Source: Armatimonadota bacterium (GTDB lineage Bacteria > Sysuimicrobiota > Sysuimicrobiia > Sysuimicrobiales > Humicultoraceae). From it: 64,000 nt of DNA. This document shows positions 8,024-34,366 of this stretch, piece by piece. The notes beneath the pieces were generated by a model. That model was not told the DNA's origin and made no database searches. It worked only from the letters and a program-made list of their open reading frames with translations. Location of the stretch: assembly GCA_031081585.1 (NCBI GenBank), contig JAVHLY010000014.1, positions 1 to 64,000 of the forward strand. The letters are read 5' to 3'. The position numbers and the translations under genes were made by a program. Numbering within the stretch: position 1 is the stretch's first letter; every line of letters begins with the position of its first letter.

Positions 8024-8026
8024 CGC

Positions 8027-8854: not shown

Positions 8855-8866
8855 AATGCGGACCTT

Positions 8867-8883: not shown

Positions 8884-8923
8884 CAACGACGTTTTCGCGG
8901 GTACCCCGTCCATCCCCTCCCGT

Positions 8924-9208
8924 ATGAGCTCTTACGATGCGGCGATCCTTGAGGGGAGCCCGGAGGCGGAGGAGCAAATTGGGGTTCATGAAGGCCGTGA
9001 TGAACCTGATACTGCAGGGGCGGTGGCTTCCGGGTGCCTGCGGCCGCGGGGTCACCCCCGCGAGTTTCTGGCCATCGGTCGGTGGGAGAGCCTGGAAGAA
9101 CTGCAGATCCTGATGGGGAACCCTGCGGTGGATGAACGCATCGCCTCGATGTTCGACGGCGCGCCCCAGGTCACCATCTGGGCGGAGGCCGGCTGGAAGG
9201 GGTACTGA
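8924..9208 (+). pseudogene. Remnant of an antibiotic-biosynthesis-monooxygenase-like (ABM) protein
   Basis: The reading frame is intact for 94 codons, but only its C-terminal half resembles the small ABM fold: REFLAIGRWESLEELQ, then a loop and APQVTIWAEAGW. The first 40 residues look random. A plausible N-terminal helix (FMKAVMNLILQGRW) is visible in another frame around 8986-9030, which suggests a frameshifted gene. It lies between the divergently oriented iclR operon and the convergent FAD oxidoreductase gene (8-nt gap). It could still be a short expressed protein. Confidence 0.4.
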
Positions 9209-9215
9209 GCCGGGA

Positions 9216-19242: not shown

Positions 19243-20234
19243 GCGAGGTCCGACTGACGGCGATCAACACGTACTTCCCGGCGGGATACCAGCCTGCCGC
19301 CGCCATTGCCGCCGCCAGCGGCATTCCCGAAGCGGTGATCACGGCTAAGTTCGGCCTGACCGGCAAGCACGTGGCCGGGACCGACGAGCACGTCTCCGAC
19401 CTGGCCATCCGGGCCGCTCGGCCCCTGGTGGACGGCCGGGGCGAGGTGGACGCGGTCATCTACTTCGGCAGCGCCCACAAGGACTACTACCTGTGGGCCG
19501 TGGCCCCGAAGATCCAGCACGCCCTGGGCCTCCACCGCGCCTTCGCCCTGGAGCTGATGGCGACCAGCGCGTGCGGTCCGATCGCCCTGAAGGTGGCACG
19601 GGACATGCTGCTGGCCGACCGGCGCCTGCGGGGGATCCTCCTGGTGGGCGCTTCGCGGGAGTCCTCCATCATCGACTACCGCAATGGCCGCTCGCGGTTC
19701 GCCTTCACCTTCGCCGACGGGGCAGCGGCGGCCCTCCTCCGGCGCGGTCCGGGGGCGGGGCACCGCGTGCTGGCCTCGGCCATCCTGACCGACGGGGCGT
19801 TCGCCGACGACGTGATGGTCCCGGCCGGCGGGTCGGTGTTGCCGCCCTCCCACGAGACGGTGGAGCGGGGCCTGCACCACCTCGACGTCCCGGACCCGCA
19901 GGGGATGAAGGCCCGCCTCGACCCGGTCTCCCTGGGCCGCTTCGTCGAGGTGGTCCGCCGGGCCCTGGAAGGGAGCGGGGCGGCGCTGGCCGACCTCGAC
20001 TTCCTGGCCGTGCTCCATCTCAAGCGCTCCATGCACCGGGCGCTCCTCCAGGCGCTGGGGTTGGAGCCGCATCAGTCCGTCTACCTGGAGCGCTTCGGGC
20101 ACATGTCCGCCATCGACCCCCTGGTGGCGCTGGCCGAAGGGGAGCGGCTGGGCCGGCTCCGGCCGGGCCACCTGGCGGTGGCGCTCAGTGCCGGGACGGG
20201 GTACACGTGGGCCGCGACGGCCATCCGGTGGTGA
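19239..20234 (+). CDS. Beta-ketoacyl synthase III-like protein
   Basis: 331 residues with the thiolase fold of the FabH group. The nucleophile Cys112 (TSACGP) is at the same position as in E. coli FabH. A basic histidine is present at about 260 (VLHLKRSMH). The third catalytic position, Asn in FabH (GNTSAA), is here His288 in FGHMSAID. Retained Cys/His chemistry with an altered third residue points to an acyl-transfer or condensation role other than standard fatty-acid initiation. It is translationally coupled to the TetR gene and followed by an acyl-CoA ligase, so it may condense or transfer an activated exogenous acid. The product is unknown. Confidence 0.82.
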   Translation: MSEVRLTAINTYFPAGYQPAAAIAAASGIPEAVITAKFGLTGKHVAGTDEHVSDLAIRAARPLVDGRGEVDAVIYFGSAHKDYYLWAVAPKIQHALGLHRAFALELMATSACGPIALKVARDMLLADRRLRGILLVGASRESSIIDYRNGRSRFAFTFADGAAAALLRRGPGAGHRVLASAILTDGAFADDVMVPAGGSVLPPSHETVERGLHHLDVPDPQGMKARLDPVSLGRFVEVVRRALEGSGAALADLDFLAVLHLKRSMHRALLQALGLEPHQSVYLERFGHMSAIDPLVALAEGERLGRLRPGHLAVALSAGTGYTWAATAIRW

Positions 20235-20239
20235 GGCCG

Positions 20240-21826
20240 ATGCAGGAGACACACGAGCACAGCGGCGGGCTCCAGGCCCCCCAGGGGTGGCCCGACTGGG
20301 GGATCTGGCACTGGCTGGAGCGGCGGCGGGACCTCTGTCCGCACAAGACGGCGATGGTGGACCGCGACCGGCGGGTTGCCTATGCCGAGCTGCAGGCCCG
20401 AGTCGCCGCCGTCGCCGGAGGGCTGCGCGGGCTCGGCATTCGACGGGGCGACCGCGTGGCCATCCTCTCCCTGAACCGACTGGAGTACGTGGAGCTCCTC
20501 TTCGCCGCCGCCCGCCTAGGCGCCATGCTGGTGCCACTGAACTGGCGGCTCACCTCCCCTGAGCTGGCCTTCCAGGTGAGCGACAGCCGCCCCCGGGTGC
20601 TGGTCGTGGACCCGGCGCTCGCCGACCTGGCGGAGGCGCTGCGCCGCAGGCCGGAGGCCGCGGCGGTGGAGCAGGTGGTGTGCCTCCCCGACGTCTCCGG
20701 CACCGGCCAGGCGGGCTTGCCGGCGGCTGTGCCCTACGAGACGCTGCTCTCCGCCGGCCCTGCCGCGCCCGAAGGCGCGAGCGGCGACCCCCTGCTCATC
20801 CTCTACACCTCCGGCACCACCGGCCGGCCCAAGGGGGCGGTCCTGGTCCAGGCCACCCAGTTCTGGAACAGCGTGAACATCGGCACGGCGCTCAGCCTGG
20901 TCGCCGGTGACGTCACCCTGAACGTCCTGCCCATGTTCCACAGCGGCGGCCTGGGGCTGCTCACCCTCCCCTCGCTGCACCTGGGGGCGACCGCCGTGCT
21001 GCTGCCGCGGTTCGAGCCCGCGGCCGTCGTCCGGGCGCTGGCCGAAGAGCAGGTCACGGCGATGTTTGCCGTCCCGGCGATCTACCAGGCCCTGCTGGAG
21101 GACGAAGGGTTCCGCCGGCTGGACCTCCGCCGGGTGCGGTTCTCCTGCGGCGGCGCGCCCTGTCCCCTGCGGGTGATCGAGGCCTTCCGCGAGCGCGGCG
21201 TGCTCTTCCAGCAGGGGTACGGGCTCACGGAGACCGCGCCCACGCTGACCCTCGTCCCGGCCGCCGACGCCTTCCGCAAGGCGGGGTCGGTGGGCAAGGC
21301 GGCGCTGCACGCCGAGCTGCGCGTCGTGGACGAGGAGGGCCGCGATGTCCCGCCGGGCGTGGTCGGGGAAGTCTGGGCCCGCGGGCCCAACCTCTTCGCC
21401 GGGTACTGGGACTGCCCGGAGGCGACCCGGGAGGTCTTCGTCGACGGCTGGTTCCGGACGGGCGACCTGGGCCGGCTGGACGAGGAAGGGTTCCTCTACA
21501 TCGTGGACCGGCGCAAGGACATGATCATCTCCGGTGGCGAGAACATCTACCCCGCCGAGGTGGAGGCGGTCCTCTACCAACACCCGGCGGTCCTCGACGC
21601 CGCGGTCATCCCCTCGCCCCACCCCCGCTGGGGCGAGGTGCCGCTGGCGGTGGTGGTGCTGCGGCCCGGGCAGACCCTTACCGCCGAGGAGCTGTTCACT
21701 TTCTGTACCCCGCACCTGGCCCGGTACAAGATCCCGCGGTCGCTCGTGGTGGTGGACGAGCTGCCGCGCAACGCCGCCGGCAAGGTGCTCAAGCGCGTGC
21801 TGCGCGAACGGTTCGCGGCGGGCTGA
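20240..21826 (+). CDS. Acyl-CoA synthetase (class I adenylate-forming)
   Basis: 528 residues. It activates a carboxylic acid to its acyl-AMP and then acyl-CoA. Motifs in order: LLILYTSGTTGRPKGA (P-loop), LPMFHSGGLG, QGYGLTETAP (A5), GWFRTGDLGRLDEEGFLYIVDRRKDMIISGGENIYPAEVE (A7/A8) and PRNAAGKVLKR with the catalytic lysine near the C-terminus. ATG 20240 has GGTGAGG upstream; a GTG at 20231 overlapping the previous stop is the alternative. The size and sequence fit medium/long-chain or aryl acyl-CoA ligases. The exact acid is not readable. Confidence 0.92.
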   Translation: MQETHEHSGGLQAPQGWPDWGIWHWLERRRDLCPHKTAMVDRDRRVAYAELQARVAAVAGGLRGLGIRRGDRVAILSLNRLEYVELLFAAARLGAMLVPLNWRLTSPELAFQVSDSRPRVLVVDPALADLAEALRRRPEAAAVEQVVCLPDVSGTGQAGLPAAVPYETLLSAGPAAPEGASGDPLLILYTSGTTGRPKGAVLVQATQFWNSVNIGTALSLVAGDVTLNVLPMFHSGGLGLLTLPSLHLGATAVLLPRFEPAAVVRALAEEQVTAMFAVPAIYQALLEDEGFRRLDLRRVRFSCGGAPCPLRVIEAFRERGVLFQQGYGLTETAPTLTLVPAADAFRKAGSVGKAALHAELRVVDEEGRDVPPGVVGEVWARGPNLFAGYWDCPEATREVFVDGWFRTGDLGRLDEEGFLYIVDRRKDMIISGGENIYPAEVEAVLYQHPAVLDAAVIPSPHPRWGEVPLAVVVLRPGQTLTAEELFTFCTPHLARYKIPRSLVVVDELPRNAAGKVLKRVLRERFAAG

Positions 21827-21828
21827 CC

Positions 21829-22659
21829 GTGCCGTACGCCCACCTGAACGGCATCCGGCTCTACTACGAGGAGGAGGGGAGCGGCCCCCCGCTGCTCCTG
21901 CTGGAGGGCCTGGGCTATGCGCTGTGGATGTGGTTCCGCCAGCGGCCGGCCCTGCGCCAGCACTTCCGCCTCGTCCTGCCCGACACCCGTGGCGTCGGTC
22001 TCTCGGAGGCGCCCCCGGGCCCCTACACCATCGACCTCTTCGCCTCCGACGCGGTCGCCCTGCTGGACCACCTGGAGATTCCCCGGGCGCACGTCCTGGG
22101 GGTCTCCATGGGAGGGATGGTCGCGATGGCACTGGCGCTGCACTACCCCGAACGCGTGGAGCGTCTCGTCCTGGTGAACACCACCGCCGGCGGCCCGGAG
22201 GCGGTGCCGATGCCGCCGGAGACGCTGCAGGCGCTCCTGGCGGCGCGCGCCCTGCCGCCGCGGGACGGGTTGCGCGCGGCCATGGCGCTCGCCTTCGCCA
22301 CCGGGTACATGGCAGCGCACCCGGAGGAGGTCGAGCAGATCCTGGACTGGCGCCTCGCCCGTCCCCAGTCCCCCGAGGCGTGGGCGTGGCAGTTTCAGGC
22401 CGGCCAGGCCTTCGACCTCTCCGCGCACCTCCGCGAGATCCGCCACCCCACCCTGGTGGTGGCGGGCTCGGCGGACCGGGTCCTGCCGGTGGCCAACGCC
22501 GCCCTGCTGGCTGACCGGCTGCCGCACGCGCGGCTCCGGGTCTTCGAGGGCGGCGGGCATCTCGTCTTCATCGAGCAGGCCGAGGCCTTCAACCGGCTGG
22601 TCGTGGACTTCCTCCGGGGGGCGCCGGTGGAGGCGTCGCCGGCCGGGGAGGAGGGCTGA
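21829..22659 (+). CDS. Alpha/beta hydrolase 1
   Basis: 276 residues. Nucleophile elbow GVSMGG, acid in VVAGSADRVLP, histidine in FEGGGHLVF. The oxyanion region is degenerate: LLLLEGLGYALWMW instead of HG. The pattern resembles 3-oxoadipate enol-lactonase/BphD-like enzymes. GTG start two bases after the ligase stop. In this cluster it could hydrolyse an ester, lactone or ring-cleavage product before activation. Not resolvable further. Confidence 0.85.
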   Translation: MPYAHLNGIRLYYEEEGSGPPLLLLEGLGYALWMWFRQRPALRQHFRLVLPDTRGVGLSEAPPGPYTIDLFASDAVALLDHLEIPRAHVLGVSMGGMVAMALALHYPERVERLVLVNTTAGGPEAVPMPPETLQALLAARALPPRDGLRAAMALAFATGYMAAHPEEVEQILDWRLARPQSPEAWAWQFQAGQAFDLSAHLREIRHPTLVVAGSADRVLPVANAALLADRLPHARLRVFEGGGHLVFIEQAEAFNRLVVDFLRGAPVEASPAGEEG

Positions 22660-22660
22660 C

Positions 22661-23722
22661 ATGGCGCTCTTGCCGGGGGTGGTCTCCGAGGTCATCCAGA
22701 CGCGCCGACTCCGTACCCACGTCCTGCGCACGGCCCGGATGGGCGGCGCGCCGGTGGTATTTGTCGACGGGAACATCTCCACGGCGCGCTTCTGGGAGGA
22801 GATCCTGGCGACGCTGCCCGCGCCCTGGTCGGGCATCGCCATGGATCTGCGCGGGTACGGCGGATCGGAACTCCGACCGGTGGACGCGACTCGCGGGCTG
22901 CGCGATTTCGCCGACGACCTGGCAGCGCTCCTGGAAGCGCTTGCCGTCGAGCGGCCACACCTGGTCGGGTGGTCGCTGGGGGCGGGAGTGGTGATGCAAT
23001 ACGCGCTGGACCACCCCGGTGGTGTCGCCTCCCTGACCCTGGAGGCGCCGCTGTCGCCCTATGGCTTCGGCGGCACCAGAGACGAGGCCGGAACGCCCTG
23101 CTGGCCCGACTACGCCGGCTCGGGCGGGGGGACGGCGAACCCGGAGTTCGTCCGGCGCCTGCGCGAAGGTGACCGGACTGACGAGAGCCCCTTCTCCCCC
23201 CGCAACGTCATGCGCGCCTTCTACGTCAAGCCGCCGTTTCGGCCCGCGCCCGAGCGGGAGGAGATCCTCGTCGCGGAGGTCCTCACCACCGCCGTGGGCG
23301 ATGACAACTACCCGGGGGACGTGACGCCTTCCCCCCACTGGCCACACGTGGCCCCCGGCCGACGGGGCGTGAACAACGCGATGTCGCCCGCTTACTGCAA
23401 CCTGAGCGGGTTCGCCCGCCTCACGCCCAAGCCGCCCGTCCTCTGGATCCGGGGAGCCGACGACCAGATCGTCTCCGATACGTCCTTGTTCGACTTCGGG
23501 TACCTGGGCCGGATCGGGGCCGTACCGGGGTGGCCGGGCGAGGAGGTCTTCCCGCCGCAACCGATGGTCAGCCAGACTCGGGCGGTCCTGGACGCCTACC
23601 GGCGCGACGGCGGCTCGGTTGCGGAGGAGGTCTTCCCCGACTGCGGGCACTCTCCGCACCTCGAGGACCCCGAGCGGTTTCGGTCCCTGCTGGTGGCCTT
23701 CGTGTCGGCGGCCACCACCTGA
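22661..23722 (+). CDS. Alpha/beta hydrolase 2 (long form)
   Basis: 353 residues, about 70 longer than its neighbour. Elbow GWSLGAG, acid region IRGADDQIVSD, histidine DCGHSPHLEDPERF. A proline- and glycine-rich cap insertion (about 130-225) includes GDVTPSPHWPHVAPGRRGVNNAMSP. The usual oxyanion HG is replaced by VDGNIS. It begins one base after the upstream hydrolase stop, so the two are translated together. An esterase or C-C hydrolase role within an acid-uptake and activation pathway is likely; substrate unknown. Confidence 0.82.
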   Translation: MALLPGVVSEVIQTRRLRTHVLRTARMGGAPVVFVDGNISTARFWEEILATLPAPWSGIAMDLRGYGGSELRPVDATRGLRDFADDLAALLEALAVERPHLVGWSLGAGVVMQYALDHPGGVASLTLEAPLSPYGFGGTRDEAGTPCWPDYAGSGGGTANPEFVRRLREGDRTDESPFSPRNVMRAFYVKPPFRPAPEREEILVAEVLTTAVGDDNYPGDVTPSPHWPHVAPGRRGVNNAMSPAYCNLSGFARLTPKPPVLWIRGADDQIVSDTSLFDFGYLGRIGAVPGWPGEEVFPPQPMVSQTRAVLDAYRRDGGSVAEEVFPDCGHSPHLEDPERFRSLLVAFVSAATT

Positions 23723-23769
23723 CGGCCGTGGAGCCGGCACACACGGGAAGGAGCGAAAGGGGGAGAGCC

Positions 23770-24969
23770 ATGAGACGTGGAGGGCGATGGTGGGTTCCGG
23801 GAGTGGCGCTGGTGGCACTGCTGGCGGTGCTGGCACCGGCAGCAGCGCAGCGGGCGGGGCCGGTCCGGCTGGGGGCCATCATCCCGCTGAGCGGTCCCGA
23901 GGGCGTGAGCGGGCAGGCGATGCAGAAGGGCTACCAGCTCGCCCTGGAGGAGGTCAACGGCCGCGGGGGAGTGCTGGGCCGTCCCCTCGAGCTCATCGTG
24001 GAGGACGACAAAGGCGACCCGCCCACCGGCGCGGCCGTCTTCCAGAAGCTCGTCACGCGCGACCGCATCGACATCCTCATCGGCGGCCTGCAGTCCGCGG
24101 TGACCATCGCGGTCGTCAGCCAAGTCCTCCGCCAGCCGATCCTCATGGCCTGGACGGGCGCGGCCTTCTCAGGTATCGAGCGGGACCTGGTCAAGGACGC
24201 CGACTGGTTCTTCCACTACCACCCGTGGGACTACCACAACACCGACTCGCTCTTCCGGTTCATCAAGTCCACCGGGGCGAAGACGGTGGCGGTGGCCCAC
24301 GAGGACGGGCCCTTCGGCGCGGGGTCCATCGACGCGATCCGGGCCTTCGCCCGCAACTACGGAGTGGAGGTGACCTTCATCGACGCCTTCAAGAGCGGCA
24401 CGCCGGACCTGACCCCGCTGCTCACCAAGGCCAAGGGCGCCAATGCCGATGTCTTCGTCTTCATCAGCTTCGCCCAGGACGTGGTCCCCATCGTGACGCA
24501 GGCCCGCCAGGTCGGGTTCGCGCCCAAGCTGATGATCGGCACACCCCCCTCCTGGCCGATCGGCTACGAGCGCCTGGCGGCCGGCAACAACGTGGCCGGG
24601 CTGGCGCTGTGGACCCCCGAGAACCGCCACCCGGCCTCGCAGCGCTTCGTCAGCCGCTGGCGCGAGAAGTTCCGCGAAGAACCGACTTCCTACTGGGGCC
24701 CGCTGGCCTACACCAACGTGGTGACGGTGGCCGACGCGGTCAACCGTGCCGGCACCGCCGACCGGGCGGCGGTGACGCGGGCGCTGGCGGCGACGGACTA
24801 CGAGGGGCCGATCGGCCGGCGGCTGACCTTCAAGCGGTCGCTGGTGGGCCGCTACCAGGGGTTCACCAGCCTGATCGCCTTCCAGTGGCGGGACGGCAAG
24901 CAGGTCACCGTGTGGCCCGAGGAGATCGCCGGCGGGCGGCTGCAGTACCCGGTGGGGTACGGCCGCTGA
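23770..24969 (+). CDS. livK: Branched-chain-amino-acid-type ABC substrate-binding protein
   Basis: 399 residues. Sec-type signal peptide (MRRGGRWWVPGVALVALLAVLAPAAAQ), then the type-I periplasmic-binding fold of the LivK/Leu-Ile-Val group: RLGAIIPLSGPEGVSGQAMQKGYQLALEEVNGRGGVLGRPLELIVEDD, DILIGGLQSAVT and VAVAHEDGPFGAG. The ATG has GGGGGAGAG upstream. In this family the ligand may be an amino acid, urea, amide or aromatic/dicarboxylic acid. With a CoA ligase and hydrolases in the same run, an organic acid is more likely than leucine. A strong hairpin follows. Confidence 0.9.
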   Translation: MRRGGRWWVPGVALVALLAVLAPAAAQRAGPVRLGAIIPLSGPEGVSGQAMQKGYQLALEEVNGRGGVLGRPLELIVEDDKGDPPTGAAVFQKLVTRDRIDILIGGLQSAVTIAVVSQVLRQPILMAWTGAAFSGIERDLVKDADWFFHYHPWDYHNTDSLFRFIKSTGAKTVAVAHEDGPFGAGSIDAIRAFARNYGVEVTFIDAFKSGTPDLTPLLTKAKGANADVFVFISFAQDVVPIVTQARQVGFAPKLMIGTPPSWPIGYERLAAGNNVAGLALWTPENRHPASQRFVSRWREKFREEPTSYWGPLAYTNVVTVADAVNRAGTADRAAVTRALAATDYEGPIGRRLTFKRSLVGRYQGFTSLIAFQWRDGKQVTVWPEEIAGGRLQYPVGYGR

Positions 24970-24976
24970 CCCACGG

Positions 24977-24997
24977 CCGCGGGGCCCCGCCCCGCGG
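24977..24997 (+). other. Perfect GC hairpin after livK
   Basis: CCGCGGGGC, a 3-nt loop, and the exact complement: a 9-bp stem without T-run, 8 bases after the binding-protein stop. As in the minus-strand sugar importer, the hairpin separates the binding-protein gene from its permeases. This would allow more binding protein than membrane subunits. Function inferred. Confidence 0.6.
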
Positions 24998-25061
24998 TCC
25001 ACACGACGTCGGGGGCACCCGGCGCCACGACGGGGGCCCCGGGCCGGGGGAGGGTTGAGGC

Positions 25062-25922
25062 ATCGAGACCCTGCTCCAGGTGCTGATCTTCGGGACGCTG
25101 CGCTCGGGGCTGTATGCGCTGGCCGCGGTCGGGCTGGCCCTCTCCGTGGGGGTGATCGGGATCGTGAACTTCGCCCACGGGGAGTTCCTCATGCTGGGGG
25201 CCTACCTGGGGTACTGGCTCTTCGCCTCGTACGGCGTCGACCCGCTGGCGGCGATCCCGCTGGGCGCGGCGGGGCTCTTCGTGCTCGGGGGCGCGCTCTA
25301 CCGGACGGCGATCCGGCGCGTCCTGCGCGCCCCCGAGCTGAACCAGATGCTGCTCACCTTCGGCATCGCCATCTTCCTCCAGAACCTGGCCGTCATCCTC
25401 TGGAGCGGCGACCCGCGCACCGCCGCCATCCCCTACAAGGCCAGCGCGCTCGCCCTGGGGCCCTTCACCATCGGCCTGCCCCAGGTGGTGGTCTTCGTCC
25501 TGGCCACGGGGCTGACGGCGGCGCTCTACGCCCTCCTGGGGCGCACGCGGGTGGGCAAGGCCATGCGCGCGGTGGCGCAGGACCGCGTCGGTTCCGCCAT
25601 CATCGGCGTCGAGGTCGATCGCATCTACCTGCTGGCCTTCGGCCTCTCGGTGGCCCTGGCCGGCACGGCGGGCCTGATGATCACCCTGCAGCTCTCCGCC
25701 TCGCCCTACATGGGGTTGCTCTACACGCTGAAGGCGTTCGCCATCATCGTCATCGCCGGGCTGGGCAACATCGGCGCGGTCGTCTACGCCAGCCTGGTCC
25801 TGGGCCTCGCCGAGGCGTTTGTGGAGTTCTACGTGCCCAACGGCGGCGGGTGGTCGGAGGGGGTCTTCTTCCTCCTCATCCTGCTCGTGCTGCTCGTCCG
25901 ACCGCGGGGGCTCTTCCAGTGA
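25062..25922 (+). CDS. livH: ABC transporter permease LivH type
   Basis: About 287 residues and eight hydrophobic helices, with the family's [36 protein letters not shown] and [21 protein letters not shown] coupling loop. The start is unusual. The family N-terminus (ETLLQVL) begins at ATC 25062, eight bases after GGAGG, with a stop just upstream and no ATG, GTG or TTG in frame before GTG 25080. GTG 25080 has no Shine-Dalgarno sequence and would remove the conserved first residues. I therefore place the start at the ATC, tentatively; CTG 25071 is a third option. Confidence 0.85.
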
Positions 25923-26926
25923 CTGTCTCCCGCGCGCTGCCGCTGTCGCGGCCGGACCGCCTGGCCGGCCGGTTGGGCGTCCCGCTCCTCCTGGGCGCGG
26001 CCCTGGCCTGGCCGTTCCTCACCGTCCGCACACAGCCCTACCTGCTGCAGCTCTCCCTGAACATCCTGATCTTCGCCGTCCTGGCCGTGTCGTGGGACCT
26101 GCTGGCGCGGACGGGGCAGCTCTCGCTGGCGCACGCCGCCTTCTACGGGCTGGGGGCGTACACCTCGGCGCTGCTGGCCACGCGGCTGCACGTGCCCATC
26201 CCGCTGGCCATGCTGGCCGGGGGCGGCCTCGCCGTGGTGTGCGCCGTGGGGCTGGGGCTGCTCACCCTGCGCCTGCGCGGCATCTACTTCGCCATCGCCA
26301 CCCTGGCTTTCACCGAGACGCTGCGGGTCGTGGCCAAGCAGGTGCGCTTCTTCGGCGCCGCCACCGGGCTCGTCGTCCCGCCGCTCTTCCCGGCCAGCCT
26401 GGTGGGCCAGTACCTGGTCATCCTGGCCGTGCTGCTGGCCACGCTCCTGGTCTCGTGGCGCGTGAACCGGTCGCGCTGGTACTTCGCCTTCACGGCCATC
26501 CGCACCAACGAGGCGGTGGCTGCGGTCATGGGCGTGGACGTGGTCCGCTTCAAGGTGGCGGCCTTCGCCCTGAGCGCCTTCTTTGCCGGCCTGACGGGGG
26601 CGTACTACGCCCACGTCTTCCTCTTCATCAACCCCTTCGAGGTCTTCAGCCTGGCCATCTCCGTCGGTGCACTGGTGGCGCCCATCTTCGGCGGCCTGTA
26701 CACCACTGCGGGGCCGCTGCTCGGGGCGGTGGTCCTGCGGGCAGGCGAGGAAGCCCTGCGGGCGACCATCCGCAGCGGCCACCTGATCCTCTACGGAGGG
26801 ATCCTGGCGGTGGTCGTCCTCTACATGCCGCGCGGGCTGCTCGGGGTGCTGGTCGCCCTGCGCCTGCGCCGGCCCCCGGCGGTCGCCGTCGGCCCGGCGC
26901 CGCCGGCGGGAGGGGCGGGGCGGTGA
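25919..26926 (+). CDS. livM: ABC transporter permease LivM type
   Basis: 335 residues, polytopic. Typical stretches: [49 protein letters not shown] and [44 protein letters not shown], the coupling loop. GTG overlaps the livH stop by 4 nt; its own stop overlaps livG. It forms the transmembrane heterodimer with LivH. Confidence 0.93.
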
Positions 26927-27660
26927 GCCTGCTTGCGCTGGACGAGGTCACGAAGGCGTTCGGCGGGCTCGTCGCGGTGAGCGACCTCTCCTTCGAGGTG
27001 CGGGAAGGCGAGGTCCTCGCGCTCATCGGGCCGAACGGGGCGGGGAAGTCGACGGCGTTCAACCTGATCTCGGGGCTGCTGGCCCCTGACCGGGGCCGCA
27101 TCGCCTTCGACGGGCGGGAGATCACCCGTCTGCCGCCGTCGGCGCGTGCCCACCTGGGGATCGGCCGCACGTTTCAGGTCATGCAGCCCTTCCATGACAT
27201 GACCGTCCTGGAGAACGTCATGGTGGGGGAGCTGTTCGGTCACGCCGTCCCCAAGTCCCTGGCCGAGGCGCGGCGCGATGCCGAAGGCATCTGTCGCCTC
27301 GTCGGCATCGAGCACCTGATGCACCGGGAGGCCACGGGGCTGGGGGTGGCGGACCTCAAGCGGCTGGAGGTCGCCCGGGCGCTGGCCACGCACCCGCGCC
27401 TGCTGCTGCTCGACGAGGTGATGGCCGGCTTGCGCCCGCCGGAGGTCGACCAGGCCGTGCAGATGCTGCGGGGCCTGCGCAGCGCAGGGATCACCCTGCT
27501 GGTGATCGACCACGTGATCCGCAGCGTCCGGGACCTGGCCGACCGGGTGGTGGTCCTGAACTTCGGCCGGAAGATCGCCGAGGGCACGTTCGCCGCGGTG
27601 GCGCGGGACCCCCCCGTCATCCAGGCCTACCTCGGCGAGGCCGGCGAGGGAGGGGGGTGA
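26923..27660 (+). CDS. livG: ABC transporter ATPase LivG type
   Basis: 245 residues. Walker [10 protein letters not shown]-loop [10 protein letters not shown], Walker [11 protein letters not shown] and switch His in VIDHVIRSV. The signature region reads [15 protein letters not shown] rather than LSGGQ; such LxxADxKRLE variants occur in one LivG subgroup. The C-terminus ends in a glycine-rich GEAGEGGG. Its UGA stop is in the same frame as livF, so the two ATPases form one long frame with a single stop between them. Confidence 0.92.
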
Positions 27661-27666
27661 GGGCCT

Positions 27667-28398
27667 CTGGACGGGCCGTCGGACGGCGACGCGCTGCTGC
27701 AGGTGGAGGGGATGAGCGCGGGGTACGGGCCGGTGCGCGTCCTGTGGGACGTCACCCTGCGCGTCGCTCCCGGAGAGATCGTGGCCCTGGTGGGGGCCAA
27801 CGGAGCGGGCAAGACGACGCTGCTGCGGGCCATCACGGGCCTCGTGCGCGCCAGCGGGGTGATCCGCGTCGGCGGGACGGTGGTCACCCACCGCTCCCCC
27901 GCCGCCATCGCCCGGCTGGGGGTGGCCCACGTGCCCGAGGGGCGCCACCTCTTCCCGCAGATGACGGTCCGGGACCACCTGGAGCTGGGGGCGGCGTTCG
28001 TCCCGGGCGCCTGGGACGCCCGGGAGCAGACCCTCGCGTGGGTCCACGCCCTCTTCCCCCGCCTGCGCGAGCGGGCGGCGCAGCCGGCCGGCACGATGAG
28101 CGGCGGGGAGCAGCAGATGCTGGCGATCGCCCGGGCGCTGATGGCCCGCCCCCGCCTGCTGCTGGTCGACGAACCCTCGCTGGGGCTGGCGCCGGTGCTG
28201 GTCCAGGCCGTCTTCCAGGCGCTGCGGGAGATCAACCGGCACGGGGTCACCATCCTGCTGGTCGAGCAGAACGTGCGCCAGACGCTGGTGATGGCCCACC
28301 GAGGCTACGTGCTGGAGAACGGCCGGGTCGTCCTGGAGGGGACGGGCCGCGAGCTGCTTGAGAACCCCCACGTCCAACAGGCCTACCTGGGGCTCTGA
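27667..28398 (+). CDS. livF: ABC transporter ATPase LivF type
   Basis: About 243 residues. Walker A GANGAGKT, signature MSGGEQQMLAIARAL, Walker B LLLVDEPSLGLAP and switch VEQNVRQ. The family normally begins close to M(L/K)xVxGLxAGYG, matching LLQVEGMSAGYG here. The only canonical in-frame start before that block's end is GTG 27703, which would cut the first strand. CTG 27667 follows a rich GGAGGGGGGTGAGGG region, so I use it provisionally. The frame is continuous with livG apart from one UGA. It completes the livKHMGF importer. Confidence 0.88.
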   Translation: MDGPSDGDALLQVEGMSAGYGPVRVLWDVTLRVAPGEIVALVGANGAGKTTLLRAITGLVRASGVIRVGGTVVTHRSPAAIARLGVAHVPEGRHLFPQMTVRDHLELGAAFVPGAWDAREQTLAWVHALFPRLRERAAQPAGTMSGGEQQMLAIARALMARPRLLLVDEPSLGLAPVLVQAVFQALREINRHGVTILLVEQNVRQTLVMAHRGYVLENGRVVLEGTGRELLENPHVQQAYLGL

Positions 28399-28414
28399 GC
28401 CCGCCAGGGGGCTC

Positions 28415-29185
28415 GTGGTCTACACCCTGGGGCGGTTCCGCGTCCTGCGAGACGGGGAGGAGATCCCGGCCCGGGCCTGGAGGCGCCGGAAGGCCCTCCT
28501 CCTCTTCCAGTTCCTCCTCACCGCCCGTCACCGTCCGATGCTGAAGGACGAGATCGTCGACCGCCTCTGGCCGGATCTCGACCCCCGGGTGGCCGACCGG
28601 GACTTCAAGGTGGCGCTGCACGCGCTGTGGTACGCGCTGGAGCCCCGTCGCCGACCCCGGCAGCCCTCCCGGTTCGTCCGGCGCGTGGGAGAGGGCTACC
28701 AGGTGACCCGCGAGGGTGTGTGGGTGGACGCGGACGCGATGGAGGCGTACGTCGCCGCCGCGGCGCAGCAGACCGCGCGCGACCCGGCCGCAGCACGGGC
28801 CGCCTATCGTGCCGCCCTCGACCTCTATGGGGGCGACTACCTGCCGGACCGCCGCTACGACGACTGGGCCACGGCGGAGCGGGAACGGCTGCAGACGCTG
28901 GCCCTGGGGGCCATGGCCGCCCTGGCCGGCCTCCTCCTGGACGAGCAGCCGCGGGAGAGCCTGCGGCTGGCCGGGCGGATGCTGGCCATCGACCCGGCCT
29001 GGGAGGAGGCCTACCGCATCGCGATGCGCGCCCACCTGGCCACCGGGAACCGGGTCCAGGCCCTGCGGTCCTACGAGCGGTGCGTGGCTGCCCTCCGCGA
29101 GCTCGGCCTGGAGCCCCTGCCCGAGACGCAGGCCCTGGCCCGGACGCTGCGCGGTCGCCCGTGGCCGCCTGTAACTCCGCCGTAA
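28415..29185 (+). CDS. BTAD-domain transcriptional regulator (SARP-like)
   Basis: 256 residues. An N-terminal OmpR-like winged helix (VVYTLGRFRVLRDGEEI, then LPARAWRRRKALLLFQFLL-type and DEIVDRLWPDLDPRVADRDFKVALHALWYALEP) is followed by a TPR-like bacterial transcriptional activation domain (YGGDYLPDRRYDDWA, then RLAGRMLAIDPAWEEAYRIAMRAHLATGNRVQALRSYERC). GTG 28415 with AGGGGG upstream is the family start. The frame is open further upstream but that part is livF 3' sequence. It lies 16 nt after livF and just before the PHA genes, so it may activate either or both. Confidence 0.88.
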   Translation: MVYTLGRFRVLRDGEEIPARAWRRRKALLLFQFLLTARHRPMLKDEIVDRLWPDLDPRVADRDFKVALHALWYALEPRRRPRQPSRFVRRVGEGYQVTREGVWVDADAMEAYVAAAAQQTARDPAAARAAYRAALDLYGGDYLPDRRYDDWATAERERLQTLALGAMAALAGLLLDEQPRESLRLAGRMLAIDPAWEEAYRIAMRAHLATGNRVQALRSYERCVAALRELGLEPLPETQALARTLRGRPWPPVTPP

Positions 29186-29200
29186 CTCGCCTCCGCCAGG

Positions 29201-29728
29201 GTGGGGGCGGTGAGGACGACGCGGCAGGGCATCGCCTCCTTCCTGGTGCGTTTCGTCCAGGAAGCCTGGCGCGACCGGACGGGCGAGCCGCGGCTGCGCT
29301 GGCGGGGCACCGTGCGCCACGTCCAGACCAGCGAGGAGGTCCCGTTCACCGGGTTCGCCGAGGTGGTGGCGTTCATGCAGCGTCACCTGGCCGCACTCAC
29401 CCGAGAGACCGCGGAGGGGACGTCCATGGATCAGGACAAGCTGTTGCAAGAGAGCCTGAAGCTGTGGGAGGAGTTCGCCACGACCTACTCCAGCCTGCTG
29501 TTCCAGGCGATGGATCGGGTCATCCAGCAGTCGGACGCCCTCAAGCAGCAGCTGAACGAGGCGGTGCAGCGCTCGCTGCAGGCCTGGAAAGGTGTGGGGG
29601 GGACGTCGCCCGACCTCGCCCGGGCGGTGGACCGCCTGGCCGCCCGGGTCGAGCAGCTGGCCGAGCGGGTGGATCGGCTGGAGCGGTCTGCGAAGCGTCC
29701 CGGCCGCAAAGGCGGCAAGCGCGGCTGA
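29201..29728 (+). CDS. Fusion of a small uncharacterised domain with a phasin/PhaE-like coiled coil
   Basis: 175 residues in two parts. Residues about 8-70 (IASFLVRFVQEAWR, then LRWRGTVRHVQTSEEVPFTGFAEVVAFMQRHL) match a widespread short domain of unknown function with a WRGxVxHV core. From residue 76 (MDQDKLLQESLKLWEEF) it is purely helical, ending in a heptad stretch (LAARVEQLAERVDRLE) and a basic tail, like PHA granule phasins or PhaE. An internal ATG (29426) has a strong GGAGGGG six bases upstream, so the phasin part may also be made alone. GTG 29210 is an alternative full-length start. First of the PHA genes. Confidence 0.7.
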   Translation: MGAVRTTRQGIASFLVRFVQEAWRDRTGEPRLRWRGTVRHVQTSEEVPFTGFAEVVAFMQRHLAALTRETAEGTSMDQDKLLQESLKLWEEFATTYSSLLFQAMDRVIQQSDALKQQLNEAVQRSLQAWKGVGGTSPDLARAVDRLAARVEQLAERVDRLERSAKRPGRKGGKRG

Positions 29729-29841
29729 TGGGTGGGCCCCGGCGCGGCACCGGCGGCCCTGTTCGGGAAGCCCGTCCAGGCTCCGGCGCACCGCGACGGG
29801 CAGCACGGACGGAGCATGACACCACACCCGGGAGGAGGGGG

Positions 29842-30117
29842 ATGGTCATGAGCAAGCAGGCCCAGACGACCGCAGGGGGATCGCCCGCCCAGGTGTACGC
29901 CGACCTGTGGCTGAAGGCAACGGAGCAGTGGGTCGACGAGGCGCTGACCGTGCGGGAGCGGCTGAGCGCGATCGCGGCGCAGGCCCTCACGCGCACCCGC
30001 GAGCTGGCGGCGAAGGAAGGAGAGCTGGCTCTGGACGTGCTAGAAGCCTGGCAGGCACAGGCGCAGGTCGCCACGCGCCGTCTGGCGAAAGTCTTCGGCG
30101 TCCCGTCGGTCGGTTAG
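29842..30117 (+). CDS. Small phasin-like helical protein
   Basis: 91 residues and almost entirely helical: YADLWLKATEQWVDEALTVRERLSAIAAQALTRTRELAAKEGELALDVLEAWQAQ. Amphipathic helices of this length and composition are typical of phasins that coat polyhydroxyalkanoate granules. GGGAGGAGGGGG lies directly upstream; ATG 29842 or 29848 are both possible. Position between the fusion phasin and the synthase genes supports the call. No catalytic motifs. Sequence-level family identity is not certain. Confidence 0.6.
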   Translation: MVMSKQAQTTAGGSPAQVYADLWLKATEQWVDEALTVRERLSAIAAQALTRTRELAAKEGELALDVLEAWQAQAQVATRRLAKVFGVPSVG

Positions 30118-30145
30118 CCTTCCACCCTCCGGCGGCCCGGCCGGT

Positions 30146-30442
30146 ATGGAGCGTGACCCCGCAGTCACCGTCCTGAAGACCGTCCTGGAGACCCTGGAGC
30201 CCGTCGCGACCTCCTGGTGGGAGGCGGCCGCCCGGCACCCGCTCTTTCTGGCCGCGCTGGGGGGGTGGCTGCGGGGCGCCCTCCTGGCTGTCCGGTGGGC
30301 GTCACCGTGGCCGGCCGTGGGCGGCGGGGCGGGAGGGGCGGAGGCGCGCCTGTGGTCCCGGCTGCGCCGTCTCGAGGGAGAGGTGGCCTGGCTCGACCGC
30401 CGCGTGACACGGCTGGAGGAAAGGGGTGGCACAGCGCCGTGA
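30146..30442 (+). CDS. Small PHA-locus protein with C-terminal coiled coil
   Basis: 98 residues. A helical N-terminus (VLKTVLETLEPVATSWWEAAARHPLFLAALGGWLRGALLAV) is followed by a Gly/Ala linker and a leucine-heptad tail (LWSRLRRLEGEVAWLDRRVTRLEER). The tail resembles the ends of the proteins at 29201 and 31530. It overlaps the first phaC by 4 nt, so it probably is its partner subunit or a granule-associated protein. I do not recognise a named family. Confidence 0.6.
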   Translation: MERDPAVTVLKTVLETLEPVATSWWEAAARHPLFLAALGGWLRGALLAVRWASPWPAVGGGAGGAEARLWSRLRRLEGEVAWLDRRVTRLEERGGTAP

Positions 30443-31533
30443 GGACCGGGGCGGACCAGGACCGTCTCGCCGCCGTCCGGTGCGCCGACGCGCTGCTCAA
30501 TGGCTGGCGGTGGGCCCGCGCCTGGTACGCGCTGCGCGGAGCGGAGGTCCCGCTGGGCAGCACGCCGGCGGACGTCGCCTTCACCCAGGGGCCTGTGCGG
30601 CTGCTCCACTACCGCCCGGCGGCGAAGCGGGTCTCCGCGGTGCCGCTGCTGCTGGTGCCGTCGCTCATCAACCGCCACTACGTGCTCGACCTCACCCCGC
30701 GACGCAGCCTGGTCCGCTACCTGCGGGACAGCGGGTTCGACGTCTGGCTCGTCGACTGGGGCACGCCGGGCTGCGTCGACCGGTTCGTGACGCTCGGCGA
30801 TCACATCGACGGGTATCTGCGCCGCTGCGTGGACGAAGTCCGGGCCGCCACGGGGGCCGCCGGCCTGTCCCTGCTCGGCTACTGCATCGGCGGGGTCCTG
30901 ACCGCCATCTTCACCGCCCGCCACCCCCGCCGCGTGCGCAACCTCGTCACCCTGGCCGCTCCCATCGACTTCCGCCAGGCCGGCCTGCTGGGGGCCTGGG
31001 CTGCCGCCCCCTACTTCCCGGTCGACCAGCTCGTCGACACGCTGGGCAATCTCCCGGGGTGGCTCCTCCAGGCCAGCTTCCGCGCCCTCCGCCCGCTGAC
31101 CCGGCTGCGCAACCTGGTGGCCCTCTGGGAGCGCGCCGACGACCCCGAGCAGCTCCTGGAGTTCGTGGCCCTCCACCGCTGGGTCGAGGACAACGTCCCC
31201 GTCTCGGGTGAGACCTACCGGCAGTTCGTGCGCGACTGCTACCAGCGCAATCTCCTGGCGGAGGGACGCCTCACCGTGGACGGCATGCGGGTGGACCTCC
31301 GGCGCATCCGCTGTCCGCTCTTGAACGTCGTCGCCACGCAGGATCACATCTGCCCTCTGCCGTCGGCGGTGGCGCTCAACCGCCTGGTGGGGTCGCGGGA
31401 CGTGACCCTGCTCACCCTGCCCGGCGGGCACGTGGGCGCCGTGGTCGGCCGCGAGGCCACCGAGGTCTTCTGGCCGCGGCTGCGCGCCTGGCTGCGCCGC
31501 CGCTCCGGGTCCCGGACCCGGCGGGTGCGGTGA
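30439..31533 (+). CDS. phaC: Poly(3-hydroxyalkanoate) synthase PhaC, copy 1
   Basis: 364 residues, the size of class III/IV synthases that need a PhaE or PhaR partner. It polymerises (R)-3-hydroxyacyl-CoA on granules. The lipase-like box is GYCIGG with nucleophile Cys149; the general base pair is Asp302 (TQDHICP) and His331 (GGHVGA). PLLLVPSLINRHYVLDLTPRRSLVRYL and FDVWLVDWGTPG are characteristic. GTG start overlaps the preceding small gene; its stop overlaps the PhaE-like gene. Confidence 0.93.
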   Translation: MRTGADQDRLAAVRCADALLNGWRWARAWYALRGAEVPLGSTPADVAFTQGPVRLLHYRPAAKRVSAVPLLLVPSLINRHYVLDLTPRRSLVRYLRDSGFDVWLVDWGTPGCVDRFVTLGDHIDGYLRRCVDEVRAATGAAGLSLLGYCIGGVLTAIFTARHPRRVRNLVTLAAPIDFRQAGLLGAWAAAPYFPVDQLVDTLGNLPGWLLQASFRALRPLTRLRNLVALWERADDPEQLLEFVALHRWVEDNVPVSGETYRQFVRDCYQRNLLAEGRLTVDGMRVDLRRIRCPLLNVVATQDHICPLPSAVALNRLVGSRDVTLLTLPGGHVGAVVGREATEVFWPRLRAWLRRRSGSRTRRVR

Positions 31534-31985
31534 GCGGGAGCCAGCCGGGCGCGGAGCCCCGGGGTGTCGCTCCGTCCGGTGAGCCGGAACCCTGGCAGGC
31601 CTTGCAAAAGGCCTGGCTCGATGCCTGGGCGAAAGCGATGCACGAGACGGTGGCCGCCGAGGAGTTCGCCCAGGTGATGGGGCGGTCGCTCGAGGTGTTC
31701 CTGCAGGCCTGGGCGCCGCTGCGGCAGATGGAGCGCGTCCTCCAGCGTTCGCTTGAAGGCGCAGGGTTGCCGACGCGCGCGGACGTCCTGGCCCTGGCCG
31801 AGCGCCTGGACGGGCTGGCCCGGCAGGTGGAGGCGCTGGCCGGCAGGGTGGATGCCCTGCGGGGACGGTCCGGGCGGGCAGCGCCGCCCTCTGGACGCGG
31901 CCAGAGGGGCGGCCGCGCGCGGGGCCGCCGCGCGCGCGCGCCGCAGCGACCCGTGGCGCGGACGCAGAGGGCCGACAGGCGGTGA
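31530..31985 (+). CDS. phaE: PhaE-like PHA synthase subunit
   Basis: 151 residues. The pattern follows PhaE: W-rich start (PWQALQKAWLDAWAKAMHET), FLQAWAPLRQMERVLQRSLEGAGLPTRADVLALAERLDGLARQVEALAGRVDAL, then an Arg/Gly-rich tail about 40 residues long. PhaE binds and activates the short PhaC enzymes. It is shorter than many class III PhaE proteins and sits between two phaC genes with 4-nt overlaps on both sides, so it could serve either or bridge both. Confidence 0.78.
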   Translation: MSGSQPGAEPRGVAPSGEPEPWQALQKAWLDAWAKAMHETVAAEEFAQVMGRSLEVFLQAWAPLRQMERVLQRSLEGAGLPTRADVLALAERLDGLARQVEALAGRVDALRGRSGRAAPPSGRGQRGGRARGRRARAPQRPVARTQRADRR

Positions 31986-33178
31986 GGCCGGTGTCGGGGT
32001 CGGCGGAAAGGGGCAGCGCGGCCATACCGCTGTCTCGGGCCGCCGGTGCCGCGCCGAGCGCGGCGGACGTGGCAGCGCCGCAGGAGCGGTACCTGCGTTG
32101 GCAGCAAGCCGTGGCGGCCGCGGCCACCGTCCCGGTCGGCCTGACGCCGCGCGAGCTCGTCTGGAGCCGGGACCGGGTGCGGCTCTACCGCTACCACGGC
32201 GCCGCCCCCCCGACCTACCCGGTGCCGCTCCTCCTCGTCTACGCCCTGGTGAACAAGCCCTACATCTTCGACCTGCTGCCGGGGCGCAGCTTCGTGGAGT
32301 TCATGCTCGGGGAAGGGTTCGACGTCTACCTGCTGGACTGGGGGAGCCCGGGCCTGGAGGACCGATGCCTGGGCCTCGACGACTACGCCCTCGACTACCT
32401 CCCGCGCGCGCTCGAGGAGGTGCGGCGACGGGCGGGAGGGGAACGGGTAAGCGTGCTGGGCTATTGCATCGGCGGGACGCTGGTGACGCTCTATGCCGGC
32501 GCGGTCCCCACGGCGCCCATCCGCAACCTGATCCTGCTCAGCGCCCCGCTCGACTTCACCGACCGGAGGGCCAGCCTGTTCGCGCGCTGGTTCGACGAGC
32601 GCTACGTCGATGTGGACCGGCTCGTGGAAACGCTGGGCAACGTGCCGGCGGAGCTCATCGAGGTGTGGGCCCAGATGCTGCGCCCGGTGGAGAACTACAT
32701 CGGCGTCTACCTGAACCTGTGGGAGCGGTTGGACGACCCCGCGGCGGTGGAATCCTGGCAGGCGATGCACCGTTGGGTGCACGACGGCGTGCCGTTCGCC
32801 GGGACGGCCTTCCGCCAGTGGGTGGTCGACCACGTCCGCGGGAACCGCCTGGTCCAGGGGACCTGCACGCTGCGGGGACGCCCCGTCCGATTGGAGCAGA
32901 TCCGGATGCCGGTGCTCCTCGTCGTGGCCGAGCAGGACCACATCGTGCCGATGCGCCAGACTACCGGCATCGTGGACCGGCTCGGCAGCCGGGACCGGCG
33001 CGTGGAGGTGATGCCCGGCGGGCACGTCGGGCTGATGAGCGGCCGTCAGGCCAGGCGCGAGGTGTGGCCGAAGATCGCCGCCTGGTTGCGGGCGCGCTCG
33101 GGCAGGCCCCGGCGCCTGGCCGGGCGAGGGGGGGGACGGTGCAGATGGGGGGAGCGGTCGCCGGTCGGAGCGCGGTAG
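31982..33178 (+). CDS. phaC: Poly(3-hydroxyalkanoate) synthase PhaC, copy 2
   Basis: 398 residues. Box GYCIGG with Cys162, Asp319 in AEQDHIVP, His348 in PGGHVGLMSG. An N-terminal Ala/Ser-rich extension and a C-terminal Arg/Gly-rich tail distinguish it from copy 1. FVEFMLGEGFDVYLLDWGSPG and YPVPLLLVYALVNKPYIFDLLPGRS match class III synthases. The two copies are clearly diverged paralogues rather than a recent duplication. GTG start overlaps the PhaE-like gene; the 3' end overlaps the dehydrogenase gene by about 40 nt. Confidence 0.93.
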   Translation: MRPVSGSAERGSAAIPLSRAAGAAPSAADVAAPQERYLRWQQAVAAAATVPVGLTPRELVWSRDRVRLYRYHGAAPPTYPVPLLLVYALVNKPYIFDLLPGRSFVEFMLGEGFDVYLLDWGSPGLEDRCLGLDDYALDYLPRALEEVRRRAGGERVSVLGYCIGGTLVTLYAGAVPTAPIRNLILLSAPLDFTDRRASLFARWFDERYVDVDRLVETLGNVPAELIEVWAQMLRPVENYIGVYLNLWERLDDPAAVESWQAMHRWVHDGVPFAGTAFRQWVVDHVRGNRLVQGTCTLRGRPVRLEQIRMPVLLVVAEQDHIVPMRQTTGIVDRLGSRDRRVEVMPGGHVGLMSGRQARREVWPKIAAWLRARSGRPRRLAGRGGGRCRWGERSPVGAR

Positions 33179-33930
33179 TCACCGGGGCGGGCGCGGGCAT
33201 CGGGCGGGCCATCGCCCGCCTGCTGGCCCGCGAGGGAGCGCGCGTGGGGGTGGTGGACCTGGAGGCGTCGACCGGCGAGGACGCCGCCCGGGAGATCCGC
33301 GACCAGGGGGGAGCGGCGGTGGCCCTGGTCGCCGACGTCGCCCAGGCGTCCGCCGTCCGTGCCATGATCGCCAAGGCGGCGGAGGCACTGGGAGGCGTGG
33401 ACATCCTGGTGAACAACGCCGGCCTCCAGCACGTCGCCCCCGTCGTCGACTTCCCCGAGGAGCGCTGGGACCGGCTGGTGGGCGTCCTCCTCACCGGCAC
33501 CTTCCTCTGCACGAAGTACGCCCTGCCGCACATGATCGCCCGGCGCTGGGGGCGCGTGGTGAACATCGCCTCGGCGCACGGGCTGGTGGCCTCGCCGTTC
33601 AAGTGCGCGTACGTGGCCGCCAAGCACGGGGTCGTGGGGTTCACCAAGGTGGCGGCCTGGGAGGTGGCGGAGCACGGGATCACCGTGAACGCCGTCTGCC
33701 CGGGGTACGTGCGCACGGCCCTGGTGGAGCGCCAGATCGCCGATCAGGCCCGCGCGCACGGCATCCCCGAGGCCGAGGTGGTCGAGCGGATCATGCTGCA
33801 GCCGGCGGCCATCAAGCGGCTGCTGGAGCCCGAGGAGGTGGCCGCGCTCGTCCTCTACCTGTGCTCGGACGCCGCGGCCGGCATCACGGGCGCGGCGTTG
33901 CCCATCGACCAGGGCTGGACGGCCCGGTAG
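33139..33930 (+). CDS. 3-hydroxybutyrate dehydrogenase (SDR)
   Basis: 263 residues. It oxidises (R)-3-hydroxybutyrate to acetoacetate with NAD, the step that mobilises monomers from PHB. Rossmann motif TGAGAGIG, NNAG, the HBDH-specific block NIASAHGLVASPFKCAYVAAKHGVVGFTK with catalytic Tyr/Lys, VCPGYVRTALVE and the C-terminus SDAAAGITGAALPIDQGWTA. Start GTG 33139 or ATG 33145, both inside the phaC2 end. Its place in a synthase operon puts storage and release of the polymer on one transcript. Confidence 0.9.
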   Translation: MQMGGAVAGRSAVVTGAGAGIGRAIARLLAREGARVGVVDLEASTGEDAAREIRDQGGAAVALVADVAQASAVRAMIAKAAEALGGVDILVNNAGLQHVAPVVDFPEERWDRLVGVLLTGTFLCTKYALPHMIARRWGRVVNIASAHGLVASPFKCAYVAAKHGVVGFTKVAAWEVAEHGITVNAVCPGYVRTALVERQIADQARAHGIPEAEVVERIMLQPAAIKRLLEPEEVAALVLYLCSDAAAGITGAALPIDQGWTAR

Positions 33931-33937
33931 CCGGGAC

Positions 33938-34366
33938 GTGAGCGGCGGGGGACCGTCGGCGGACCGCTTCACTCCCGGGCAGCGGGCCACCCTGACGCGG
34001 ACCATCACCGAGGAGGATATCCAGGCCTTCGCCGCCCTCACCGGGGACCGCAACCCCCTGCACCTGGACGAGGCCTTTGCCCGGCGCACCCGCTTCCAGG
34101 GCCGCATCGCCCACGGCCTGCTCACGGCCAGCCTGATCTCGGCGGTGCTGGGCACGCAGCTGCCCGGCGCGGGCGGCATCTACCTGGGACAGACCCTGCG
34201 CTTCCGGCGGCCCGTGCGCCCGGGGGACACCGTCACCGCCGAGGTGGAGGTCGCCGCCTTCGACGCGCGCTCCCGGCGGCTGTCGCTGCGGACGCGCTGC
34301 GTGAACCAGCGCGGCGAGACCGTGCTGGAGGGTGACGCGGAGCTGCTGGTCGAGGAGGGAGGGTAA
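33938..34366 (+). CDS. phaJ: MaoC-like (R)-specific enoyl-CoA hydratase (PhaJ type)
   Basis: 142 residues, hot-dog fold. Catalytic motif AALTGDRNPLHLDEAFA with Asp and His, followed by GRIAHGLLTASLIS. PhaJ proteins turn trans-2-enoyl-CoA from beta-oxidation into (R)-3-hydroxyacyl-CoA for PhaC. With no phaA or phaB in the locus, this would be the monomer supply, so polymer would be made from fatty acids. GTG start 7 nt after the dehydrogenase. Confidence 0.88.
   Translation: MSGGGPSADRFTPGQRATLTRTITEEDIQAFAALTGDRNPLHLDEAFARRTRFQGRIAHGLLTASLISAVLGTQLPGAGGIYLGQTLRFRRPVRPGDTVTAEVEVAAFDARSRRLSLRTRCVNQRGETVLEGDAELLVEEGG

Follow-up and report, generated by a model that had tools for sequence, protein, structure and literature searches.

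Two polyhydroxyalkanoate synthases of different ancestry flank a single PhaE-like gene in an Armatimonadota bacterium

Synthases of polyhydroxyalkanoates (PHAs) are divided into classes defined by their subunits. Class I catalytic subunits (PhaC) normally need no PhaE partner, and in most genomes with several synthases the extra copies are scattered or silenced. Rubrobacter loci carry a class I phaC, a class III phaC and phaE side by side (Table 1 in PMC8146576), and one PhaE in Haloferax mediterranei serves different PhaC paralogues, which give copolymers that differ in 3-hydroxyvalerate content (PMC2939530). For Bradyrhizobium, a PhaC1/PhaC2 heterodimer has been hypothesized, as yet without proof (PMC10888616), and there is precedent for an expressed PhaC paralogue whose presence reduces PHA content (PMC10888616; PMC12863089). 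Here we analyse a PHA locus in which two phaC genes enclose one phaE-like gene, located in a 64,000-nucleotide stretch of an Armatimonadota bacterium (GCA_031081585.1, contig JAVHLY010000014.1, positions 1 to 64,000; hereafter the window). We argue, with a probability of roughly 0.6, that it encodes a functional PHA cassette: two catalytically complete synthases of different ancestry, granule proteins, a PhaJ-type hydratase for monomer supply and a 3-hydroxybutyrate dehydrogenase (HBDH) for re-use.

Two synthases around one PhaE-like gene

The PHA operon occupies positions 28358-34366 on the forward strand and, judging from the open reading frame (ORF) listing and family searches, encodes in order a BTAD-domain regulator, proteins A, B and C, PhaC1, a PhaE-like subunit, PhaC2, HBDH and PhaJ. 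A preliminary description of this DNA had named the same genes at the same coordinates and remarked on their dense packing from 30146 onwards, which is borne out here: the genes at the junctions C/PhaC1, PhaC1/PhaE and PhaE/PhaC2 share four bases, GTGA in every case, which hold both stop and start, PhaC2 and HBDH overlap by 34 nt, and a mere 7 nt separate HBDH from PhaJ. Given the three GTGA overlaps, C, PhaC1, PhaE and PhaC2 form one translationally coupled operon; the overlaps thus amount to more than near-touching and imply that these four proteins are translated together. GC content at third codon positions (GC3) is 0.85-0.97 in all frames of the cassette, a coding signal that is weaker evidence for C and for the tail of PhaE, where second positions are also GC-rich. 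A scan of the region for promoters and terminators found none, as expected at 73% GC.

PhaC1 (30439-31533, forward strand, 364 residues) is a diverged class III-like catalytic subunit and PhaC2 (31982-33178, forward strand, 398 residues) a synthase of the short-PhaE/class IV-like clade. The class III model TIGR01836 is the top synthase model for both (323.3 bits, E = 1.7e-96, and 359.6 bits, E = 1.5e-107, respectively), even though neither reaches its curated cut-off of 365.3 bits. Class I and II models score far lower; TIGR01838, which describes class I PhaC of about 60 kDa and has a cut-off of 622.65 bits, gives 164.5 and 125.1 bits for these 364- and 398-residue proteins. When scored against profiles for short-PhaE/class IV and for class III synthases, PhaC2 clearly prefers the former (490 versus 333 bits), whereas the near-equal scores of PhaC1 (347 and 337 bits) leave its class undecided by profile.

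The two proteins share 44% identity across 321 residues, in line with the earlier characterization of two diverged synthases, and both appear intact. Each carries the lipase-like box G-x-C-x-G as GYCIGG and keeps the catalytic Cys-Asp-His triad (Cys149, Asp302 and His331 in PhaC1; Cys162, Asp319 and His348 in PhaC2). Aligned with 55 related synthases, both also retain all 26 columns in which at least 85% of the relatives agree, including the tryptophan of the D-W-G motif. The idea that PhaC1 is a dead synthase finds no support in its sequence, as every conserved position is retained.

The gene between them (31530-31985, forward strand) encodes a short PhaE/PhaR-type subunit of 151 residues with a basic, Arg/Pro-rich tail, which scores 35.1 bits with PF09712 (cut-off 25.7). 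More specific models fall short of their cut-offs: the PhaR model TIGR02132 gives 27 bits (E = 3.6e-6; cut-off 148.4) and the full-length PhaE model TIGR01834 gives 33.4 bits across its C-terminal third only (cut-off 154.95). A PDB sequence search with this protein returned nothing. A short PhaE also precedes a PhaC in loci L008, L009, L046, L067 and L077.

Ancestry and recurrence of the arrangement

We built maximum-likelihood trees from 57 PhaC and from a reduced set of 45 without long branches, with concordant results. In both, the sister of PhaC2 is a PhaC of G489, a Chloroflexota-like genome of the same phylum as G102 (58-59% identity; support 100/97 and 99/98). Note that phylum labels for the G-numbered genomes are inferred. 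Together the two nest in a clade whose PhaC follow a short PhaE and come from Chloroflexota-like, Planctomycetota and Acidobacteriota genomes, and the class IV PhaC from Priestia megaterium groups with this clade (98/96 for a clade of 14 rows in the reduced tree, 94/94 in the tree of 57). PhaC1 lies outside the P. megaterium grouping as a deep, unplaced branch, its best match being a PhaC of G396 at 45% identity, a poorly supported pairing (88/30).

Might the pair nonetheless have arisen by simple tandem duplication of one phaC in place? The level of identity between the two proteins and their shared lipase-box context would fit such a history. However, constraining PhaC1 and PhaC2 to be sisters costs 58 log units and is rejected by the approximately unbiased (AU) test (p-AU = 0.00018), so that the second synthase is no in-place copy of the first, and PhaC2 sits within a different clade that has a synteny of its own. 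We therefore reject in-place duplication, which on this evidence is extremely improbable: the trees indicate that PhaC1 and PhaC2 are different in ancestry.

Real PhaC are rare in the phylum, occurring in two of 43 sampled genomes (all of one order), namely that of the window and G015. A phylum consisting of a single class and a single order would match what has been published for Sysuimicrobiota/CSP1-3 (PMC11604079). None of the ten other members of the window's family has one, and four further matches in the phylum are short and weak. The single PhaC of G015 belongs to a different clade, where it groups with the phylum of G126, and the synthases of the phylum thus have at least two sources. 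The preliminary description had held that close relatives with only one phaC would count against paired synthases; with ten family members devoid of phaC and the lone phaC of G015 placed in another clade, that situation is not clearly what we see.

Two PhaC no more than 5 kb apart were found in five of 24 PhaC-bearing genomes of a domain-wide sample to which the window's genome also belongs (G000, G160, G169, G297 and G305), in no genome out of 63 from the phylum of G126, and in three of 57 from the phylum of G102 and G489 (G489, G592 and G709). These counts are lower bounds, the best few candidates per genome having been scored; loci with the order PhaC-PhaE-PhaC are undersampled in other phyla, and one scan of genome contigs returned three loci only.

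Outside the phylum, the exact order PhaC-PhaE-PhaC is present in G489, where BTAD and protein A accompany it, and in G160. The arrangement had been called unusual, and a comparison with other two-phaC loci proposed; on our data it is indeed uncommon, known in at least two other lineages, and a variant of known PHA synthase loci. The first PhaC of G489 is class I-like, with 556 residues. In G160 (L042), a PhaC (6724-7803) is followed by a PhaE-like protein (7800-8219), a second PhaC (8257-9381) and a thiolase, while G297 has the order PhaE-PhaC-SDR-PhaE-PhaC (SDR, short-chain dehydrogenase/reductase) and G604 the order BTAD-A-phasin-PhaE-PhaC. The downstream PhaC of G160 and G297 are sisters of each other and fall outside the PhaC2 clade; pairings of the PhaE-PhaC2 type recur in Chloroflexota-like, Planctomycetota and Acidobacteriota loci. 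Since the synthases in these PhaC-PhaE-PhaC loci are not orthologous, the arrangement seems to have originated repeatedly, from different synthases.

The G160 stretch (L042, 6724-9381), an independent case of PhaC-PhaE-PhaC, is 49% GC, and an SDR gene precedes its operon. In G305 (L043, 324-2626) and G169 (L044, 6561-8898), two PhaC-like genes follow each other head to tail without an intervening PhaE, the second being very diverged (about 26% to PhaC1).

Small proteins, monomer supply and the upstream operon

Protein C (30146-30442, forward strand, 98 residues) is a helical orphan with a coiled coil at its C-terminal end. AlphaFold2, given the single sequence, predicts it to be all-helical (mean confidence, pLDDT, 75). 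Family searches, the PhaE/phasin profile and the ORFs of related loci yielded no homologue or family for it, and there was no significant fold match among PDB structures. We considered whether C might be a truncated PhaE and rejected this, given 2.8 bits with the PhaE profile and the lack of a fold match. The claim that each PhaC is preceded by a coiled-coil protein of its own thus holds by homology for PhaC2, with PhaE, and by position only for PhaC1, C being without detectable relation to PhaE.

Protein B (29842-30117, forward strand, 91 residues) is phasin-like and has a clear Shine-Dalgarno sequence, GGAGGAGGGG. Family searches gave no family match for it; among 2849 ORFs of related loci its best match is a 148-residue phasin-like protein of G604 (E = 0.002), which holds the equivalent place (BTAD-A-phasin). 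Protein A (29201-29728, forward strand) combines a small N-terminal domain with a phasin/PhaE-like helical domain and matches the PhaE/phasin profile at 71 bits, though A itself is not part of that profile. Its earlier designation as a phasin fusion proved apt, as homologues in G489 (50% identity) and G604 (41%) carry both parts in the same order. An in-frame ATG at 29426, behind a strong Shine-Dalgarno sequence (GGAGGGG), falls exactly at the start of A's phasin domain, and a second start there could produce the phasin part alone as an extra product.

The BTAD-domain (SARP-like) regulator (28358-29185, forward strand; PF03704, 76.6 bits) has homologues that adjoin those of protein A in G489 (57.6% identity) and G604 (57.3%). 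This adjacency makes the BTAD gene part of the cassette rather than its boundary, and its product probably regulates the cassette.

At the other end, HBDH (33145-33930, forward strand), an SDR, passes the TIGR01963 cut-off (353.8 bits; cut-off 307) and is 70% identical to its positional counterpart in G015, likewise an SDR. Enzymes of this type usually mobilize polyhydroxybutyrate. The last gene (33938-34366, forward strand; PF01575, 95.9 bits) encodes a PhaJ-like (R)-enoyl-CoA hydratase of MaoC fold, whose R-specific role is predicted from a MaoC/hot-dog domain of about 140 residues within a PHA locus; the same gene occurs in the PHA loci of G015 (60% identity), G126 and G457. The locus lacks phaA and phaB, as the preliminary description had stated. 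Genome-wide, three thiolases score above the TIGR01930 cut-off, all elsewhere than the PHA locus, and no acetoacetyl-CoA reductase (PhaB) passes TIGR01829 (best score 238 of 302 bits), with several FabG-type reductases below that cut-off. The proposal that monomers come from beta-oxidation through PhaJ is weakened by these thiolases and by the genes upstream, and survives as one route only: imported acids and beta-oxidation intermediates may both contribute, and a thiolase with a FabG-like reductase is also possible.

The operon directly upstream (20234-28398, forward strand) encodes, by family matches, an AMP-forming acyl-CoA ligase (20234-21826; best model PRK06839), two alpha/beta hydrolases and a complete Liv-type ABC transporter, made up of the binding protein, LivH, LivM, LivG and LivF. 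This content suggests import by the transporter, CoA activation by the ligase and ester hydrolysis by the hydrolases in the service of monomer supply, and the linkage would open a possible path from imported acids directly to storage polymer. G015 (L040), from another family of the same order, is collinear with the window over 20.5-34.4 kb, with identities of 66% for the acyl-CoA ligase, 44% for an alpha/beta hydrolase, 69% for the Liv binding protein, 81% for LivH, 73% for LivG and 74-75% for LivF. LivM is collinear too; no counterpart of the second hydrolase was seen in G015.

The PHA parts themselves differ, reading HBDH-PhaC-PhaE-PhaR-...-PhaJ in G015 and BTAD-A-B-C-PhaC1-PhaE-PhaC2-HBDH-PhaJ in the window. 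On the simplest reading, HBDH and PhaJ were retained from an ancestral Liv-PHA linkage in which the synthase part was swapped out. Because PHA genes are also accompanied by BTAD and A in G489 (identities of 58% and 50%, respectively) and in G604 (57% and 41%), a regulator and phasins probably arrived together with the incoming module. Any transfer was not recent, given that the composition matches that of the genome.

Two further observations concern the upstream genes. The N-terminal part of one alpha/beta hydrolase (22661-23722, 353 residues) resembles an intracellular depolymerase of short-chain-length PHA (NF050089, 89 bits; cut-off 300), and this enzyme could be the depolymerase of the cassette. 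A 3-oxoacyl-ACP synthase III-like gene of the PRK06840 family (19239-20231; 411 bits, cut-off 315) adjoins that of the acyl-CoA ligase.

Proposed joint action of the synthases and comparison with known systems

From these features we infer activity, a division of labour, partner choice and a monomer source along the following lines. One operon would be transcribed, and coupled translation would deliver two synthases in fixed proportion to the same granule. PhaE would most likely activate PhaC2, with which it is usually partnered by descent, and perhaps also PhaC1, while PhaC1 would act beside PhaC2 on the granule, whether by itself, together with protein C, or with PhaE as a shared partner. 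In haloarchaea, such sharing of one PhaE among several PhaC has been shown (PMC2939530). The two synthases would probably prefer different monomers, or divide priming and elongation between them, with monomers provided by PhaJ and probably by acids that the upstream operon would import and activate. Three points weigh against a functional cassette of this kind. Homology lends B and C little or no support; the branch leading to PhaC1 is long (about 1.0), so that the protein, for all its intact residues, could be decaying or have changed its function; and its AlphaFold2 model (pLDDT 39, four sequences) is too poor for use.

We consider two synthases made together on one granule, with PhaE mainly for PhaC2, likelier than the PhaC1-PhaE-PhaC2 heteromer that the preliminary description had called plausible. 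The published Bradyrhizobium heterodimer proposal (PMC10888616) lends such a heteromer some plausibility. Imagine that the three proteins formed one obligate mixed synthase whose stoichiometry was set by coupling: GTGA overlaps would then be expected to span exactly PhaC1, PhaE and PhaC2, as they do, and the order would be expected to recur with non-orthologous synthases, as in G489 and G160, if the pairing itself were selected. However, G489 combines PhaE with a first PhaC from a class that normally does without it, and the closest relatives of PhaC2 sit in loci with a single PhaC and PhaE, so that an obligate heteromer looks unlikely. Quite unlikely, in our estimation, is also a bolder version, in which PhaC-PhaE-PhaC loci were built independently in several phyla and one PhaE unites two PhaC, or passes chains between them, to give polymers (blocks, for example) that neither makes alone.

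Alternatively, C and PhaC1 might constitute a second, independent minimal class III synthase alongside PhaE-PhaC2. C sits directly 5' of PhaC1, is coupled to it and ends in a coiled coil; G297 carries PhaE-PhaC twice in one locus, and set against the gene order of G604, C would take the place of PhaE. Its negligible score with the PhaE profile and the absence of a PDB fold match nevertheless make this doubtful. Improbable, too, is a role for PhaC1 as a regulatory or weakly active paralogue that tunes or damps PhaC2, comparable to what has been proposed for PhaC2 of Bradyrhizobium: the long branch and the published paralogue that reduces PHA content (PMC10888616; PMC12863089) would be consistent with it, but the catalytic and strongly conserved positions of PhaC1 are all intact. 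A coupled operon with two intact synthases of different ancestry and one PhaE, present in at least three lineages with different pairs, lets sharing of PhaE be tested directly, and likewise whether mixed synthases exist and whether the polymer changes as a result.

How, then, does the locus compare with described systems? With class III PhaC-PhaE synthases (Allochromatium, Haloferax, cyanobacteria) it shares a PhaC of about 40 kDa with a Cys-Asp-His triad, encoded beside a helical PhaE in one operon; it differs in its short PhaE, far below the TIGR01834 cut-off, and in having two PhaC around one PhaE, of which PhaC2 falls just and PhaC1 clearly below the TIGR01836 cut-off. With the class IV PhaC-PhaR system of Priestia megaterium it shares the clade of PhaC2 and a short partner with weak similarity to PhaR, whereas the PhaR score is just 27 of 148 bits, the operon has no phaQ or phaB, and there is an extra synthase. 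The Rubrobacter loci likewise have two synthases and an adjoining PhaE, but in the order PhaC-PhaC-PhaE rather than PhaC-PhaE-PhaC, and one of their synthases is class I, which neither is here. Haloferax mediterranei also combines multiple PhaC with one PhaE (PMC2939530, PMC12863089), with genes that are scattered there and coupled in one operon here. The G489 locus (L067) has in common the order BTAD, protein A, small coiled-coil proteins, PhaC, PhaE and PhaC2, and differs in its class I-like first PhaC, an intervening alpha/beta hydrolase, and the lack of an adjoining HBDH or PhaJ.

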